From a virus, in IMG/VR virus record IMGVR_UViG_3300047551_001325, positions 1-64,000 of that record: DNA of 64,000 bases; one strand, given 5' to 3'. Positions 1-56,312 of this stretch are shown piece after piece. Position numbers and translations under genes: made by a program. Under the pieces are notes generated by a model. That model was not told the origin of the DNA. It made no database searches and worked only from the letters and a program-made list of their open reading frames with translations. Position 1 is the first letter of the stretch; the number at the start of each line of letters is the position of its first letter.

Positions 1-63
1 CTTGAACGGTGGATACTTGCCCACCACTCGCATGCCGTCTCTCAATTCTTTTGTGCTTGCCAT
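1..63 (-). CDS. N-terminus of a leftward gene cut by the window edge
   Basis: Only the first 21 codons are present (MASTKELRDGMRVVGKYPPF...), and the gene runs off the left end. ATG at 63 is preceded by a purine-rich ribosome site (AAGGAAG) about 6 nt upstream. It is the most downstream visible member of the leftward small-gene series, and an 84-bp gap with a Crp-like box separates it from the next gene. Function cannot be told from this fragment. Confidence 0.6.
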   Translation of the reverse strand, partial: MASTKELRDGMRVVGKYPPFK

Positions 64-25937: not shown

Positions 25938-26910
25938 TCTTGTCAAAGCCTTAACAATTGCTCCAGAGTGGCCTGTAGTACAACCAGGGCCGTCTGTGCG
26001 TATGCCAAAGCTTTCTACAAAAGCTTCATCAAGTAAAGATGGCTACGAAACATGTGTTGTTCTTCCAGACATGCAAATTGGTTATTTTAGAGCACGTTCT
26101 GGTGAGCTTGAACCAACACACGATGAGAACGCAATAGACATTGCTTTTTCAATTATCAAAAACTTAAATCCAGACTTAGTTGTGCTTGTCGGAGACAACC
26201 TTGATTTTCCTGAGTTTGGAAAGTACAGATTAAGTAGTGCTTATGCACTAACTACACAAGCATCAATTGACAGAGCAACTGTCCTTTGTGCTCAGTTAAG
26301 AACTGTTGCACCAAACGCTAAAATAGTTTGGTTAGCAGGAAACCACGAAGAAAGATTGGTGAACTTTGTCCTCGACAACGCAAAAGCAGCATTCGGAATC
26401 AAACGTGGGGTCAGCCCTGACTCTTGGCCTGTTCTTTCTATCCCTTATCTCTGTCGCTTCGATGATTATGGGGTGGATTATGTACCGGGCTATCCAGCGG
26501 GACAATTTTGGATCAACCAAAGACTCCGTGTCATCCACGGCACAAAAGTACGCAGTAACGGGTCGACAGCGCATGCGTACCTCAACACTGAAAAGTCCTC
26601 AGTTTTATATGGGCACATCCACCGCCGCGAATGGGCAGAACGCTCACGCGACGATTTCGATGGCCCAAAAACCATCATGGCCGCATCCCCTGGTACGTTG
26701 GCAAGATGTGACGGAACCGTACCATCGACAAAAGGATCTATAGATCTAGATGGTAGACCAATGACTATTGTTGAAGATTGGCAACAAGGTATTGGCATTG
26801 TGACCTACCAACCTGGTGAGGGAAACTTTTTCTACGAACAAATTCCATTCCATAATGGAACAGCATTTTTTAGAGGGAAGTTTTACAATGCACAAACCCA
26901 AAAAGTCTAA
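25915..26910 (+). CDS. Calcineurin-like metallophosphoesterase
   Basis: 331 aa from ATG 25915 (GTG 25930 is an alternative; both overlap the gene before). The five motifs are present: LPDMQIGY (D, with Gln in place of the usual His), VGDNLDF, GNHEERL, VIHGT and GHIHRREW, which bind two metal ions. The Gln variant of motif I occurs in other phage enzymes. The substrate could be nucleic acid 3' ends, cyclic nucleotides or a protein phosphate. Its place in the packaging region is unusual. Confidence 0.87.
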   Translation: MGGVVVSDLVKALTIAPEWPVVQPGPSVRMPKLSTKASSSKDGYETCVVLPDMQIGYFRARSGELEPTHDENAIDIAFSIIKNLNPDLVVLVGDNLDFPEFGKYRLSSAYALTTQASIDRATVLCAQLRTVAPNAKIVWLAGNHEERLVNFVLDNAKAAFGIKRGVSPDSWPVLSIPYLCRFDDYGVDYVPGYPAGQFWINQRLRVIHGTKVRSNGSTAHAYLNTEKSSVLYGHIHRREWAERSRDDFDGPKTIMAASPGTLARCDGTVPSTKGSIDLDGRPMTIVEDWQQGIGIVTYQPGEGNFFYEQIPFHNGTAFFRGKFYNAQTQKV

Positions 26911-38475: not shown

Positions 38476-41400
38476 TGGCAACTGATGACGACATTCAGAA
38501 AATGGTTTCAAAAGAAACCCAGTCGATGGCTAGAGCTGAAGTTGGTATTAACGCCGACACCACCGATCTAAAAAACATTACAGACGCCCTCAAGAAAGCA
38601 AAAGAAGAGGGAGAACGTCTAGCTGTATCTTTGGGCAAAGCTGTACAAGCTATGAAGAGCTTGAAAGAAATGGGCCTTGTTCAAGTATACGACCAGTCCG
38701 CGCATTGGAGCGGTGGTCAAGGAGGAGCAGGAGGTGCCGGCCAATTAAGTGTTGGAAGCACTCCCGTAGCTGGGTCTAAGCCAAGCCACCCAGCTCCTGT
38801 TGTTCCAGCACCAAACGCTGTTGTTGCGGCAGGAGGAGCTTCACCAGGTATATCAGCGGTTGCAGCTGGGTCACCACTTGGTTCCGGATTTGCGGCGCAG
38901 TTCTTAAGAGGAGCAGCAGGTGCTGGAGCACCAGGTGTTCCTGGAATCCTCGGTGGTGGTGGTACTGGTGCAATTGGTACTGCCGGACAGCTTGGAGCAG
39001 GTGGTTTTGGGGCCGGAAACATTGGAGCAATAGTTGGCAGTCTAGGTAGCCAAATTGTCCAAGCAATTGACAAACGTGTTGAATCTGGCAGAGCCTACAC
39101 CTTAGCCGCAGACAAGAGCACATTGGTTATGCAGCAACTCACTGGTATGAGCCAAAGTGGGGTTATGAATAACTTAAGAATGCCATTAACCCAATACAAA
39201 CTTGGCGTTAACGGCATCAATGAGATGATGGACTTACAAGCAAGGACGGGCATAAACGCGGCTGGACAGGCTAGAAGCGTTGAGTTCATGAGAACCCTGA
39301 GTGGGTTTACAATGGGGGCTGCTGGAGCTACTGGAATCATTGAAAGCCTTGCTGATCCAGAGACTGTAAACAAAATGTTTATGATGACTGGTATGAGTTT
39401 AATTGGACCAGGTGGTAAACAGCGTTCAACTCAGTCCCTGATTGAAAACCTTGCAAAACGCGCTGGGTTAATGGACCCTAAACTTGCAGCAACAGCAATG
39501 GCCCCGGGTTCGGTATCAAGAGCAACCCTTTCACAAATGGGTGTTACTGGCGATATGCAAGAACAAGTTTTAAGATTTGCCCAATCAAACGCAGCGTTTC
39601 GTAAACGTGGTGGAAAAGGTACATACGATCCAACAAAAGAAGAAGATCGTAAACTTATGGGTATTGACGACACCTTCGCTATGGAGGCAGAGGAGACCCA
39701 ACGCAGACGAGGCAAGCGTGAAGAACAGTTTTATAGAGACCAAGCGGACGCTTATGCAAAACTTGAAAGGCAGACCCAAAGACTTACTGACGCTATGGCT
39801 AAGTTTGAACACGCAATGGAAGGGATTATTGGTGCAAGAACCGGAAGTCGAGTAGGTCAAAAGTTGCTTGGTGGATTAGCCGGTGCAGGAGGAATGGGTT
39901 TACTTGGCATGGGTGTTGCAACTTTAGCTACTGGTGGAGCTGCTGGTGGGTTATTGCTTGGTGGAGCCGTTCTTAGCGGCATAGGAAAAATACTTGGTGA
40001 CCCCAACACAAGTGATGACTTTGCATCGTCTATCTGGACACCACGTTCAAGTAGTTCTACTGTTGTTGGTAGCAGTACAGCTACTGTGCCAGCAGGCACA
40101 CCAGCAATACCTATAACTCCTGATGTCCCTGCGGCAATAACTCCAGACCCAGAAACCGCTCCTTTGCAGCTTTGGGAAGCTGGTCAATACGATGTGTTTA
40201 GGACTGGGTTAAAGTCAACCTTTAGCGATTCATTTTTGCAAACTCAATATAGCGGTAAAAGTGAACACACTATAAAAAATAGTGGTGAGTTTAATGAGTT
40301 AAATGGTGCCCTTAGAAAAGCCATAAACAGTATGGCTGACAGGGCAATGGTTGAGGCTGGCTTGGACATCAACCTTGTAAGCGGTCGCCGTTCTACCGAT
40401 GAACAGTTAAAACTTTTCCTTGAAAGATACCAAGTAGCACCACCTGGGGTAAAAGAATACAAAGACGCTTTTGATGGTAAATACTATAAAGTTAAAAACT
40501 TTTATGGTTCTAATTGGATGAAAAAGCCTCAAAATAGTGATCCTCCAGTAGCTGTGCCAGGAACTTCTTTACATGAAATTGGAATGGCCGCAGACATTGA
40601 TATGTCTGATCCAAGAGTTGCTCAGTGGGTAAGAAACAACAAATGGAGATTTAACCTAGTCAATGGAGAAGGCGAAGAACACCACTTGCAGCTTGCTTGG
40701 ACAAAAGATATGACCTTAAGTCAATTCTTAGGAAAAACAGGTTTAAGTATTGAACAGGCAACTAAGAACACACATGTTGCTATGCAAGGTAGCAGTCGTT
40801 ACACAAACTCATTTAGACCTGGATTTGGAGTAGATATAAATAGATTTTCTGAAGCGCTTCTTAGAAGATGGGGTTACACAGTAACACCAGAGAAGGTAAT
40901 GCTTCTTAGAGCATGGTCAGATAAAGAAGGAACAGGTGGTTCCTATAACCCAATGAACGTCATTTCTGGAAACAACAGAGTTGATCCGTCTACTGGATAC
41001 GAGAGAGCCGAAACAAACTATAACAGTAATGGTGGTGGCATGTATCCAGTACAAAACTTTGATAGTTTTGAACAAGGCGTTGAGTACACTGCTCTTCATT
41101 TAGGCACAAACAACCAAGCACTTATGGGAATCTTGGCTCAACCACGTCCAACAATTGACCAAATTAGAACAGTGCTGTCATCTGTAAACAGAAAAACAAT
41201 GCTTAACATTTTTAACGGGTATGCAAATCGCTACCAAGATCCTGACTATGGGGTAAAAGGGCTCTACAATATAAATGGAATGGATTTTGGAAAAAAACTA
41301 GCTGGTTATTCTGGAGATCCACAGCGATCAATGAGTGGTTCTACATTGTCTCCAATTTCTATGCCATCAACTGCTGCTGCTGCAACTCCGGTTGTTGGTA

Positions 41401-51168: not shown

Positions 51169-51603
51169 TCACTTAGTCGAAGCGCGGAGTTGCCACGCCC
51201 ATTTTTTGTGCATGTCAATTCGTCCAGATATAAAATCCGCAATACCTTGTTCATCTGCTTTAGTTGCTTTTTTAAAGGTATCATTAAGTGATTTAATTAC
51301 AGATTCATTGGCGGTAAGCAAAGCTTTTGCCATTGCTTTTGGGGACGGTTCAACATCTTTAAACTGTACCGTAGTTAACTCATTAAACTTCTTTAAACTA
51401 AATGGAGCGTAGTCATCTAACTTACGGATGTTCTCTGCAATAGGGTCGATGCTCCCGTAGGCGTCTTCATAGATGTCTGAGAACAAATCGTGGTATTGAC
51501 TGAAGTCAGGCCCTTCTACATTCCAATGGTACCCATGGGCCATAAAGTAAAATGTAACTACGTCCGACACGAGTACTTTTAAAGCTTTAATTAATTCTTC
51601 CAT
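51169..51603 (-). CDS. Dps-like ferritin-fold protein
   Basis: 144 aa from ATG 51603 (AGGAGCACA). MAHGYHWNVEGPDFSQYHDL then FSDIYEDAYGSIDPIAENIR carries the Dps ferroxidase signature (H..HWN..G..F...H..F...Y.D......D..AE.IR), one of whose His is a Gly/Tyr here. A Trp-containing helix (RIDMHKKWAWQLRAS) ends it. Dps dodecamers oxidise iron and protect or compact DNA. In phage it may shield the genome from host oxidants or condense DNA. First gene of the leftward operon, with an extended -10 at 51632-51640. Confidence 0.88.
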   Translation of the reverse strand: MEELIKALKVLVSDVVTFYFMAHGYHWNVEGPDFSQYHDLFSDIYEDAYGSIDPIAENIRKLDDYAPFSLKKFNELTTVQFKDVEPSPKAMAKALLTANESVIKSLNDTFKKATKADEQGIADFISGRIDMHKKWAWQLRASTK

Positions 51604-51631
51604 TGTGCTCCTAGTCAAACGGTCACCCCAA

Positions 51632-51691: not shown

Positions 51692-52945
51692 ATGGGAACT
51701 AATAACGTATTTGGTGGGCGTTTTGTCGCTGTACCTGAGTGGGCATTGACCTACGTAAACGAGCACGGACAGCCACGTGATCTACAGATACTAACATGTA
51801 TTGTGTCAATGATAAACTTTCATGACAAGTCTGTAACCGTGTCTGTGACTGAGCTGGCAAAGATTGCCCACACATCAAAAGAAACTGTAAAACGATCACT
51901 AAAATGGTTAGCTGACAACTTTGTAATCAGTGTAACTGTTGATAAAAAACCAAACCCAAACACATACACAGTACATTACACTCAGCAAGTGATGGGGTCA
52001 TCAGTGACCCCATCTAGGGTCATGGATGACCCATTCATGGGGGCATCAGTGACCCCTACTACGGTAGGGGATAGGGTCGTACATGACCCTATTAAAACGC
52101 TTGAACTGCCAGCGTGTGAGGGGTTTTCTGAAACTCCTAGAGTAATACTATTACTAAACAGAGAAAATACAGAAGTACTACAAAAGGCCGATGGCGGAGA
52201 TGGTAAGGTTAATGACATGATTTTAGGCGCAGATCCAAACGATGTTGTGAAGAGTGATGAACCGGTTAAACGCAAGCCACGTCCTGAAGTAAATCACTTA
52301 GTAAACTACTTTGTTTATCATCCACGATCAGTAATGGCGTGTTCGTACACGTTTCAAGAAACACAAATACTCAGAAGAACTATACGGTTACTCCTAGACT
52401 CTGGGCTTACACGGGCATCAATTGCAAAAATGATTGACAAGTTCTTTAGCACCGACCGAATGCGCTCAGCAGATTCTCCTGTACACATGTTCTCAAGCAA
52501 AGCAGTTCAACAATCTTTGATGGACAAAGTTGAAACTGAATTAGATGAGAACACCAACCCAGTTCTGACATTGATGCTCAATGACTTCAACAGAGATAAT
52601 GTACATCTACCGTGGGATTCATCAGCAGACGAGCATCTTCGTAAAACAGTTATCATGTCTGGAATGGATGCTTGTTATCGCTATCCAGAAGTAGTTGCTA
52701 AAGTAATTGAATCCTACACAGACTTCTCTCATCCAGAGTTTAAACGTAAACTATCTGCACTTAACTCTCTGGTTAAGTGGCACTTAAACGAAGAGGACTG
52801 CGATAAAGAAGAACTTTTAAAAATTCTTTCTGATACCACACTTCCAAAAGAGTTGCTTGCAAAAACTAGGTCAACCCTTAGACCAGCAGCTGATACGATT
52901 GTTTCAGCAATTTACAATTATCGAAGAGGTTCTCATGGGGTATGA
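51692..52945 (+). CDS. Replication initiator with winged-helix domain (lambda O-like)
   Basis: 417 aa from ATG 51692; no strong ribosome site, and an upstream GTG 51605 is possible. Residues about 20-100 (RDLQILTCIVSMINFHDKSV, SVTELAKIAHTSKETVKRSL) form a winged helix as in lambda O and plasmid or phage initiators. The gene itself contains an array of palindromes (51991-52090) encoding a low-complexity linker. The C-terminal region is helical and probably binds the helicase loader. It leads the replication module, followed by an AAA+ loader and a DnaB-like helicase, the lambda O-P order. Confidence 0.8.
   Translation: MGTNNVFGGRFVAVPEWALTYVNEHGQPRDLQILTCIVSMINFHDKSVTVSVTELAKIAHTSKETVKRSLKWLADNFVISVTVDKKPNPNTYTVHYTQQVMGSSVTPSRVMDDPFMGASVTPTTVGDRVVHDPIKTLELPACEGFSETPRVILLLNRENTEVLQKADGGDGKVNDMILGADPNDVVKSDEPVKRKPRPEVNHLVNYFVYHPRSVMACSYTFQETQILRRTIRLLLDSGLTRASIAKMIDKFFSTDRMRSADSPVHMFSSKAVQQSLMDKVETELDENTNPVLTLMLNDFNRDNVHLPWDSSADEHLRKTVIMSGMDACYRYPEVVAKVIESYTDFSHPEFKRKLSALNSLVKWHLNEEDCDKEELLKILSDTTLPKELLAKTRSTLRPAADTIVSAIYNYRRGSHGV
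51991..52090. other. Putative replication origin: palindromic iterons inside the initiator gene
   Basis: Four related inverted repeats: 51991-52014 (10-bp arms GATGGGGTCA/TGACCCCATC), 52017-52032 (GGGTCAT/ATGACCC), 52039-52056 (GGGGGCATCA-GTGACCCC, one change from the first) and 52073-52090 (AGGGTC/GACCCT). Centres are about 22, 23 and 34 bp apart. A different palindrome CCCCTAC/GTAGGGG lies at 52053-52070. An AT-rich stretch follows (about 52091-52190). Initiator-gene-internal iterons next to an AT-rich unwinding region are the arrangement of the lambda origin. Confidence 0.7.
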
Positions 52946-53150
52946 CGGTATGTTTGCGTTTGCAAGTTTTGAAGACCTTATCAACTTTGTGACTTGGGTC
53001 ACAGCATCGTTTGATGACCCACAAGAGTTCATGGAATGGGTAGAGTCACGGACCTCAGACTTTTCAAAAATTGACAATGAATTTTGGAGCATAATTGAAA
53101 ATGGCTATTACACGGAAAGTACCAACACAGACGTTCCCGGTTCCGACTGA
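52935..53150 (+). CDS. 71-aa acidic hypothetical protein
   Basis: MGYDGMFAFASFEDLINFVT..., strongly acidic and aromatic (TASFDDPQEFMEWVESRTSD). ATG 52935 overlaps the initiator stop, and its end overlaps the loader gene. No family recognised; sits between initiator and loader, so a regulator of their interaction is possible. Confidence 0.6.
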   Translation: MGYDGMFAFASFEDLINFVTWVTASFDDPQEFMEWVESRTSDFSKIDNEFWSIIENGYYTESTNTDVPGSD

Positions 53151-53730
53151 TTGGAAATCTGAAAAGTGGTGGCGTAACCGCTCAAAAGACGAACGTGTGT
53201 TCCACACACGCATACCAGCAAGATGGACGAGCTTCGCTCTAGAAAATCTAGAAGTAAGTGACTCCACTAAATCTGAAGTATCAAAGTGGTTGAATAATTA
53301 TCAACCAGGTGACAGTCTTTTCCTACACGGAAAATCAGGTTGTGGAAAGAGTGTTGTTGCTCAAGCAGTCCTATCTGAGATTGTTTCTAACCACGAGCTT
53401 TCTGGCCGCTTTGTAAGTAGCGATCGGTATATCGACATGCTCAAAGATACATTTGAACAGGATGGTGGACTACTTCCTGAAATGTACTCAATGCCATACT
53501 TACTGAAGTACATTCAAGGTGTCTTTGATGTTGTCATGCTTGATGGTGTTGGTCAAGAAAGAGAAACTGATTTCTCAACACACGAAATCGGTAGCCTCAT
53601 TAGGCGCAGATATGAAGACACCAGATCAATGATCATCACAACAACGATGGGTGTAATGGACTTCAATCGACGTTATGGGGATCGGGTAAAGGTCGCAACA
53701 ACGGAGATGACAGAGATTAGAGTTTCGTAA
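53101..53730 (+). CDS. AAA+ helicase loader (DnaC/IstB-like)
   Basis: 209 aa. Walker A FLHGKSGCGKSVVAQAV (about residues 75-91), Walker B FDVVMLDGVGQE (about 139-150), sensor 1 MIITTTM, and arginine residues near RRRYEDTRS form a complete P-loop ATPase of the DnaC type. It loads the replicative helicase at the origin. It directly follows the initiator, as lambda P follows O, though lambda P is not itself an ATPase. Shares a base with the next gene. Confidence 0.9.
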   Translation: MAITRKVPTQTFPVPTDWKSEKWWRNRSKDERVFHTRIPARWTSFALENLEVSDSTKSEVSKWLNNYQPGDSLFLHGKSGCGKSVVAQAVLSEIVSNHELSGRFVSSDRYIDMLKDTFEQDGGLLPEMYSMPYLLKYIQGVFDVVMLDGVGQERETDFSTHEIGSLIRRRYEDTRSMIITTTMGVMDFNRRYGDRVKVATTEMTEIRVS

Positions 53731-54173
53731 TGGAACGCGGAGACATATCCGATTACACAATTATTTCCCAAGCCTGTATCTGGGAAGGCGTACTTGCTAA
53801 TCCACCTGAAGGGCTTACTTCTAAAACTCGTTATCGTTTCTACGAGCGTGCCAACAACTGGGATTCAGCCATACCAATGTGGAAACCAAATGACTTGTCC
53901 GTCAGATCAATTGCTGACTGCACCAACAGATTGCATATTGGTACTGACGTGATCACATTTCTATCTCAAGATGCTGTAGACCCCATCTATAACTGGTTGC
54001 TCAGAAAAGGAATTACTACTACCGTGTTGTATTACCCCTCAGCTGAGGAGTATGCTCTTGACCTTCGCTACAACCGTGGAATAAAAACCGTCTACGTTGC
54101 CAACGATGACGACGCACTAACGATAGGGTTACGAGCCCATGTCGTACAACCAAACACTGCTTGGAGAATCTGA
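53730..54173 (+). CDS. Hypothetical protein in the replication module
   Basis: 147 aa, MERGDISDYTIISQACIWEG.... Alpha/beta pattern with LRKGITTTVLYYPSAEEYAL and IKTVYVANDDDALTIGLRAH, possibly a nucleotide-binding or PIN/receiver-like fold, but no motif is certain. Starts on the base that ends the loader and stops on the base that starts the helicase. Confidence 0.6.
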   Translation: MERGDISDYTIISQACIWEGVLANPPEGLTSKTRYRFYERANNWDSAIPMWKPNDLSVRSIADCTNRLHIGTDVITFLSQDAVDPIYNWLLRKGITTTVLYYPSAEEYALDLRYNRGIKTVYVANDDDALTIGLRAHVVQPNTAWRI

Positions 54174-55426
54174 TGGCTTCCAGTGAGCTGTATTTAGTTT
54201 CAAAAATAATTCAAGAAAAAGATATAACTACTCCGGTACGAGCCGGACTAAAACCAGACCACTTTACTGGTTCTTGGGTTGAGGTTTGGTCTTGGTTGCT
54301 TGACTTCCAACGTACTCACGGTGCAGTTCCTACTGAACGTGTGTTTTCACAAGAGTTTGGCGACATACATCTTGAGGATGCATCCGGAGAAACTTTCTCC
54401 AGACTTATTGATGAAGTCCTCGCTGCGTACCGGCAGAGAACCATCATGGATTCTCTATCCCATGCAATCCCCGCGATCAACAACAACGACATTGATGAAG
54501 CAATGTCAGCCCTTGCGGCGGGTCTTCAAAAAGCCTCAGTTGAATCATCACGTCTTAGAGACATTGACATTATTCAAAACTGGGAAAACAGAATGTCGCG
54601 TTATGAAGAGATGCGTAATACACCAAATGCTCTTCGTGGCATACCTACAGGTTTTCATGGGCTAGACAGAATCACACACGGTCTTCGTCCGCAACAGTTT
54701 ATTGTGTTTGCAGGAGAACCAAAGCGAGGAAAATCTTTGTTTGCATTGATCCTTGCCAACTCCGCTCACATCCATGGAAAGCGCCCATTGTTTGTTTCTT
54801 TTGAAATGAGCATTGAGGAACAAGAGGCTCGTTATGACTCTCTTATTTCTAAAGTTCCGTATACGCGTATCCTTTCGGGCGACCTGTCTAACTCTGATAT
54901 GGCAAAGATCAAACGTGCGCTGAGTATAAGAAAGAACATGCAACCCTTTGTGTTTAGCGAGGACACATCGTCGTTGACAACAGTTACAGCACTGGCAGGA
55001 AAGGTTCAGGAATATCAACCAGACTTGCTTGTTGTAGATGGTGTGTACCTGATGGACGACGAAGAGGGTGAGGCAAAAGGCTCACCACAGGCTTTAACAA
55101 ATATCACCAGAGCGTTGAAGCGACTTGCCCAACGATTTGATATTCCGGTAGTTGCAACAACACAGGTGTTGTCATGGAAGCTACAGAACAGAAAAACACG
55201 AGCCGTAACCGCGGACGCAATCGGTTACACATCTTCGTTTGCTCAAGACGCAGACTTGATACTTGGTGTAGAACGAAATCCTGATGTAGACGATCAAGCG
55301 ATTATCAGAGTTGTGCTAGCAAGAACTGCCCCAACTGGAGAAGTACACGTAAAATGGGATTGGGCTACCATGGAGTTTGAGGAAGTAAACGATTATGACG
55401 ACTACATCAACCCATCATTCGATTAA
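54173..55426 (+). CDS. Replicative DNA helicase (DnaB-like)
   Basis: 417 aa. The N-terminal part resembles DnaB N-domains (LYLVSKIIQEKDITTPVRAG). The RecA core has Walker A VFAGEPKRGKSLFALILANS (about residues 178-197), SFEMSIEEQEAR (motif 1a), Walker B LLVVDGVYLM (about 284) and VVATTQVL (motif 3), then the arginine-rich end region. A hexamer unwinding DNA ahead of the polymerase. ATG 54173 has GGAGAATCTG; the longer frame start is not needed. Confidence 0.93.
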   Translation: MASSELYLVSKIIQEKDITTPVRAGLKPDHFTGSWVEVWSWLLDFQRTHGAVPTERVFSQEFGDIHLEDASGETFSRLIDEVLAAYRQRTIMDSLSHAIPAINNNDIDEAMSALAAGLQKASVESSRLRDIDIIQNWENRMSRYEEMRNTPNALRGIPTGFHGLDRITHGLRPQQFIVFAGEPKRGKSLFALILANSAHIHGKRPLFVSFEMSIEEQEARYDSLISKVPYTRILSGDLSNSDMAKIKRALSIRKNMQPFVFSEDTSSLTTVTALAGKVQEYQPDLLVVDGVYLMDDEEGEAKGSPQALTNITRALKRLAQRFDIPVVATTQVLSWKLQNRKTRAVTADAIGYTSSFAQDADLILGVERNPDVDDQAIIRVVLARTAPTGEVHVKWDWATMEFEEVNDYDDYINPSFD

Positions 55427-56312
55427 CCTAGCTCAAGTTCTTGAGTCGGTTGGCGTTGAGATTAAGCGCGTTGGCGACAGAGAGATAACAGGCAAATGCC
55501 CTGTGCACATTCGTACTGTTGGACGCCAAGATAACTCCCCGTCATGGAGCATGAACGCCACAACAGGTTTGTGGATATGCTTTTCATGTGGTGCTCGCGG
55601 GTCGTTATCATCGTTACTCTATGAACTTACTGGTGATTCTGATTCTCTAGGCATACAGAAGATGCTTGTTGAATCTTCTTTTGAAGCTTTAAAAGCACCA
55701 AAAGTTCAACAAGAAGAAGTTTACGTAGACCGCGATGCATTCTTTGGTTTTGCAAGAGTGCCAGAAGCACTTTGTGCATCAAGAAACCTTGATCCAGAAC
55801 TAACCCACAAACACGGCGTACGCTGGAACAAAGACCGTAGGGCGTGGGCCATACCGATTATGTCGCCTACCGGAAGACTAGAGGGGTGGCAAGAGAAGAG
55901 ACTTGGCAGTGTTCTTAATTATCCAAATGGTGTAAAGAAATCTAAAACACTTTTTGGTATTGAGCGTTTTAAAAGCAAGACAGCCGTCCTTGTAGAATCC
56001 CCACTTGACGTAGTTAGGTTTGCAGCCATAGGAACTGATGCTCAAGCGTTAGGTACATTTGGTGCTTATGTATCCGATGAACAACTTAGATTAACTTTGT
56101 ATGTTGCCGACAAAATTGTCGTAGCAATGGACAACGATGACGCAGGCGTTGCTTCTAGCAAGAAGATATACAAAGCACTAGGTACCCCACGAGCAGGTCT
56201 TTTGTGGTGGAACTATAGTAATTCAAACTGCAAAGACATAGGTGACATGGAAGACGAGGAAATTAAGGTAGGATTAGATACCGCAACTGTCCTACCACCT
56301 TGGATTACCTAA
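55395..56312 (+). CDS. DNA primase (DnaG-like)
   Basis: 305 aa. Zinc domain with CPVH ... CFSCGARGSL near residues 35-80 (CHCC-type). TOPRIM domain with AVLVESPLDVVRFAAIGT (about 197-214), ALGTFGAY and KIVVAMDNDDAGV (about 240-252). Compact form without a long C-terminus. Starts 32 bp inside the helicase gene. Confidence 0.93.
   Translation: MTTTSTHHSINLAQVLESVGVEIKRVGDREITGKCPVHIRTVGRQDNSPSWSMNATTGLWICFSCGARGSLSSLLYELTGDSDSLGIQKMLVESSFEALKAPKVQQEEVYVDRDAFFGFARVPEALCASRNLDPELTHKHGVRWNKDRRAWAIPIMSPTGRLEGWQEKRLGSVLNYPNGVKKSKTLFGIERFKSKTAVLVESPLDVVRFAAIGTDAQALGTFGAYVSDEQLRLTLYVADKIVVAMDNDDAGVASSKKIYKALGTPRAGLLWWNYSNSNCKDIGDMEDEEIKVGLDTATVLPPWIT

Follow-up and report, generated by a model that had tools for sequence, protein, structure and literature searches.

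The DNA analysed here, a stretch of 64 kb (the window) from a 73.5-kb virus record, very probably contains the replication origin of a phage, laid out inside the initiator gene in the manner of the O gene of phage lambda. This reading follows from an O-like winged helix, iterons placed within the coding sequence for a disordered linker, conservation of the synonymous sites there, persistence of the iterons down to 26% identity, an AT-rich element, and adjoining genes for a loader, a helicase and a primase. The locus is a further case of a known in-gene origin design; the new element is a two-gene form of the initiator with switching half-sites. The features are listed in Table 1.

Table 1. Features of the initiator locus and its surroundings (window coordinates)
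Feature	Position	Strand	Description
Dps/ferritin-like gene	51172-51618	-	PF00210 7e-19; PHROG 3636 1e-26; divergent, just upstream of initiator
Replication initiator gene	51692..52945	+	ORF; PHROG replication-initiation families; AlphaFold2 model
Iteron 1	51991..52014, palindrome 51993-52010	.	GATGGGGTCATCAGTGACCCCATC; 0 mismatches to core
Iteron 2	52015..52034, palindrome 52015-52032	.	core GGGTCATGGATGACCC at 52017-52032; 0 mismatches
Iteron 3	52038..52057, palindrome 52038-52055	.	core GGGGCATCAGTGACCC at 52040-52055; 1 mismatch
Extra palindrome, different sequence	52053-52070	.	CCCCTACTACGGTAGGGG, CCCCTAC-TACG-GTAGGGG; between iterons 3 and 4
Iteron 4	52071..52092, palindrome 52072-52089	.	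ATAGGGTCGTACATGACCCTAT; 1 mismatch to core
AT-rich element, candidate unwinding element	52139..52187	.	TAN trinucleotide run, codons GTA ATA CTA TTA CTA
Short GC-rich inverted repeat	52186..52196	.	after AT-rich element; read from sequences; low confidence
DnaC-like AAA+ helicase loader	53101..53730	+	PHROG 50 E=2.6e-17; Pfam IstB_IS21 2.7e-6
Small conserved gene between loader and DnaB	53730..54173	+	relatives' annotation
DnaB-like replicative helicase	54161..55426, analysed from ATG at 54173	+	PHROG 19 E=3.1e-66; Pfam DnaB_C 3e-37
DnaG-like primase	55395..56312	+	PHROG 47 E=3.7e-35; Toprim and CHC2 domains

As described in the earlier note, four inverted repeats are arranged in tandem within the gene for a winged-helix protein, here of 417 amino acids. 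They share the consensus GGGTCA-N4-TGACCC, have their cores between 51995 and 52089, and are spaced 22, 23 and 34 nt from start to start. Elsewhere in the 64 kb a single site with at most two mismatches was found, at 26408, against about two scattered ones expected by chance, and a motif scan of the whole 73.5-kb record revealed no second cluster. Synonymous-codon shuffling of the initiator gene (n = 500) yielded 0.92 sites on average and 3 at most; none of the 500 shuffles reached four. In a de novo search for palindrome families the initiator gene scored 10, its shuffles at most 5 and three control genes of the window 3-4. The extra palindrome of different sequence is kept in L002-L004 and absent from L005 and L010.

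The AlphaFold2 model of the initiator, of modest overall confidence (pLDDT 67.7), comprises a winged helix (residues about 12-97), a disordered linker (99-194) and a helical C-domain (198-414), residues 99-181 and 183-194 being below 50. The codons of the iterons and of the AT-rich element are thus predicted to fall in the disordered linker between the two domains. By itself the window protein gave weak PHROG matches (270 at 6e-4, 678 at 0.018). Its family relatives matched PHROG replication-initiation families at up to 1e-17, the E values for 391, 678 and 8540, 'replication initiation O-like', being about 2e-17 to 1e-16, and the winged helix of the split clade described below, the sole query with named relatives, matched O proteins of named phages with E values down to 3e-6. 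By sequence comparison the winged helix is homologous to the phage O-like initiator families; a distant likeness to DnaD-like families (PHROG 186) was also detected. A profile comparison with lambda O gave no signal, possibly because the lambda side was a single sequence. The searches revealed no recognised relative of the C-domain, and Foldseek in the PDB returned only generic winged helices, weakly.

Relatives were gathered by scanning viral contigs with the window initiator and with DnaB. The full-length initiators recovered share between 99% and about 26% identity with that of the window. None of cultured origin was found, and tblastn of the window and L055 initiators against named phages gave no match. 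In nearly all full-length relatives, down to 26% identity, palindromes were present at the same linker position. Five core positions were invariant in 118/118 sites of the GGGTCA type, and the spacings (22, 23, 33, 34 or 45 nt) were near multiples of 11. Two to five sites of one clear half-site type were carried in the linker region by 65 of 67 distinct initiators. Of 18 large records, 15 contain one iteron cluster per genome; the remaining three are members of a GTGTCA clade. Between the initiator genes of the window and of its 84%-identical relative L005, the codons of conserved residues were identical for 83% in the linker against 53-54% elsewhere (p = 9e-6), whereas amino-acid identity was lower in the linker (71%) than outside it (86-88%). 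The earlier note had asked whether synonymous sites in the repeats are conserved among related phages; synonymous identity was raised in seven pairs, this one included (74-92% in the linker versus 47-69% elsewhere, p 3e-6 to 3e-3). The linker is the least conserved part at the amino-acid level in most pairs. A linker that is kept while the palindromes are lost had been named as evidence against an origin; the relatives show the reverse, and in dozens of uncultured ones the DNA sites persist despite an altered protein or a gene split at that very spot. Shuffles and synonymous identity together indicate that the iterons are conserved at the DNA level, independently of the encoded peptide.

These data bear on the idea that selection on the protein maintains a repeated peptide here and that the symmetry of the DNA is a by-product. 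Iterons 1 and 3 do encode similar peptides (GSSVTP and GASVTP), and in some relatives shuffles reach the observed number of sites (56/500 in L029, 98/500 in L034). However, the codon frames of iterons 1-4 are 0, 1, 0 and 1, and a single motif in the DNA gives GSSVTP or RVMDDP, depending on the frame; the remaining frame would make a stop codon of the TGA in the right half-site. This alternation of two frames in one gene argues against a peptide-driven repeat, as do the diverging amino acids and retained synonymous sites of a linker that is predicted to be disordered. A peptide repeat is therefore hardly credible, and the earlier claim that the protein does not demand the symmetry of the DNA holds. 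As the peptide alone makes palindromes likely in L029, L034, L037 and L055, the shuffle test rests on the whole set of relatives.

Alternatively, the palindromes might act at the RNA level, forming hairpins in the initiator mRNA that serve translation control, protection or processing. The predicted fold of the 256-nt RNA of this region is much more stable than those of shuffled sequences (z = -5.4), which is inevitable for tandem palindromes. Hairpins would need only pairing, whereas it is the half-site sequence itself that is near invariant and common to the copies within a gene, and comparable arrays recur in the O-type genes of other phages. This makes a role as hairpins very improbable.

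It could also be argued that the palindromes are operators by which the winged-helix protein or another regulator represses or times the replication operon, the origin being elsewhere. Winged helices of such shape resemble the MarR and ArsR regulators, and symmetrical sites suit a dimeric repressor. The sites are, however, positioned 300-400 nt inside the gene, away from the promoter, and copies of them are absent from other promoters in the genome. In addition, the nearest protein families are replication initiators and an AT-rich element follows the iteron array in the relatives examined. Operators in place of an origin are consequently unlikely, while autoregulation may be a second role of the iterons.

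An AT-rich stretch after the repeats, as proposed in the earlier note, is indeed present, but it begins about 50-55 nt past the last iteron and not directly after it. Its best 40 nt are 75% AT and its TAN-run statistic is 5, against a shuffle mean of 2.47 (2/300 shuffles reach 5). At the same place, relatives on the branch of the window reached 78-85% AT over 40 nt, and those on the L055-L071 branch mostly 68-75%. The element was found in the relatives examined and exceeds synonymous shuffles in most genes. The short GC-rich inverted repeat behind it, a low-confidence feature, is weak in the window and stronger in several relatives. In L055 and L058-L071 an inverted repeat of 34 nt, ACAAAGGGAAATGTCTAAAGACATTTCCCTTTGT or a variant of it, is located about 60-95 nt past the last iteron; changes in its arms are matched, and GGGCTTCGCCC follows directly. 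The TAN runs, which arise from NTA codons and are seen at 52141-52155 in the window and in relatives, resemble the DnaA-trios or the DnaD recognition element of Bacillus subtilis, an AT-rich unwinding stretch with a T at every third base (TnnT; PMC10201434). This is kept as a resemblance only, and a scan of one relative, L029, gave no DnaA-box-like match.

For lambda it was described that every iteron, an inverted repeat of 18 bp, binds two molecules of O and that the AT-rich region unwinds (PMC6022878, PMC7466680). O still complements when its AT-rich part carries in-frame deletions (PMC6022878), which fits a linker that tolerates change. The annotated iterons (starts at 39034, 39054, 39078 and 39101 in NC_001416; O codons 117-145) were recovered by the palindrome scan. 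The lambda origin (39034-39118) and the window locus have in common four 18-bp iterons of hyphenated symmetry in linker codons (in lambda some 20-24 nt apart), an AT-rich stretch after them and a loader gene downstream; in O, too, the AT-rich stretch is followed by an inverted repeat. They differ in the half-site and in the AT-rich element, which is adjacent in lambda and about 55 nt off in the window. The C-domain is not detectably related, in a comparison against the single lambda O sequence, the loader is DnaC-like and not P, and the window phage is large and contractile-tailed and has its own DnaB and DnaG. The design had been called exactly that of lambda O, which is fair for the layout and does not extend to the C-domain, the loader type or the phage's own DnaB and DnaG. 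Related winged helices are present in gp41 of Geobacillus phage vB_GthS_PT9.1, gp14 of Pectobacterium phage ZF40 and O of Pseudomonas phage PseuP_222. In the corresponding part of their genes the scan detected 2-4 tandem palindromes, and helicase or loader genes lie downstream. Their half-sites, spacers and C-terminal parts are different and the phages are smaller. Tandem palindromes in the O-/DnaD-like genes of these three phages imply that the in-gene design is of a known kind.

In the origin model a dimeric winged-helix initiator would bind the four palindromic iterons in the linker codons of its own gene, and the assembled complex would melt the AT-rich element, which starts some 55 nt further on. 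The C-domain would then recruit the DnaC-like loader, which would place the phage's own DnaB helicase, followed by the DnaG primase. We infer binding, dimerisation, melting, loader contact and the start of replication at this locus; that a dimer occupies each iteron is suggested by the symmetry of the site alone. Skew was uninformative: at third codon positions, GC and AT skew in four relatives of 92-94 kb exhibited no clear switch near the site.

The AAA+ loader and DnaB-like helicase reported downstream were both identified by their PHROG matches, and the loader-DnaB-DnaG operon is conserved among annotated relatives. The small gene between loader and helicase occurs in all relatives of one annotated set, in most of another and in contig L096 of an Armatimonadota metagenome-assembled genome (MAG). 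In several relatives minus-strand ORFs of about 144 amino acids are found at the position of the Dps/ferritin-like gene. A tail sheath gene (PHROG 23, E=3.8e-47) bears out the contractile tail. The description of the phage as probably actinobacterial could not be established: the nearest named DnaB proteins, those of Streptomyces phages, are only 36% identical, and these phages have no detectable initiator homolog. A search of genome contigs for the host gave a single DnaB match of 35%, in the Armatimonadota MAG, which does not amount to a host call. At 4205-4251 of L096 an initiator-like gene contains a tandem pair of palindromes (AGAGTGCCAAATTGGCATTCTC) whose half-site is a different one; their score was also reached by shuffles.

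In a sister clade (DnaB about 62-66%) the iterons read GTGTCA-N4-TGACAC and are located at the 3' end of the gene for a winged-helix protein of about 150-175 amino acids. The next, overlapping gene encodes a protein of 132-138 amino acids that matches the C-domain profile (E = 2e-8 in L072; others weaker, 3e-5 to 6e-3), that of L078 being tied to the C-domain only through its split-clade relatives. A winged-helix scan gave 67 loci, nearly all with four sites. In a tree of 67 distinct winged-helix domains, built on 111 columns and with many forks open, 25 fused and 41 split forms are separate, with at least two changes between them. The half-site types GGGTCA, GTGTCA, GTGACA, GTGACT and GTATCT were distinguished, both arms and all copies changing in step; coordinated switches to GTGACA (twice), GTGACT and GTATCT could be placed on the tree. 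L054 sits on a long branch and has an iteron type of its own, with two sites that approximate GGACA-N4-TGTCC. In this clade, then, the initiator is probably made of two proteins, with the origin marking the seam of the split or fusion, and the half-sites have switched several times, all copies together and in step with the initiator. The two-gene initiator, split just after the iterons and with switching half-sites, is new at the family level; no description of it was found in the open-licence papers searched.

On this reading, the lambda type of self-contained origin also occurs in large phages with contractile tails that form a widespread clade, and the combination of iterons and an AT-rich element inside an initiator gene offers a portable means of predicting origins. 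The coordinated switches and the two-gene form are natural variants for testing how initiator and sites change together. If the reading of a two-protein initiator is true, the clade would offer a natural series in which to follow the co-evolution of initiator and origin, together with a minimal O-type initiator in two pieces. In L072-L091 and others, the two proteins of the split initiator both have a D-x-R-L motif at their ends, perhaps a shared docking tail.
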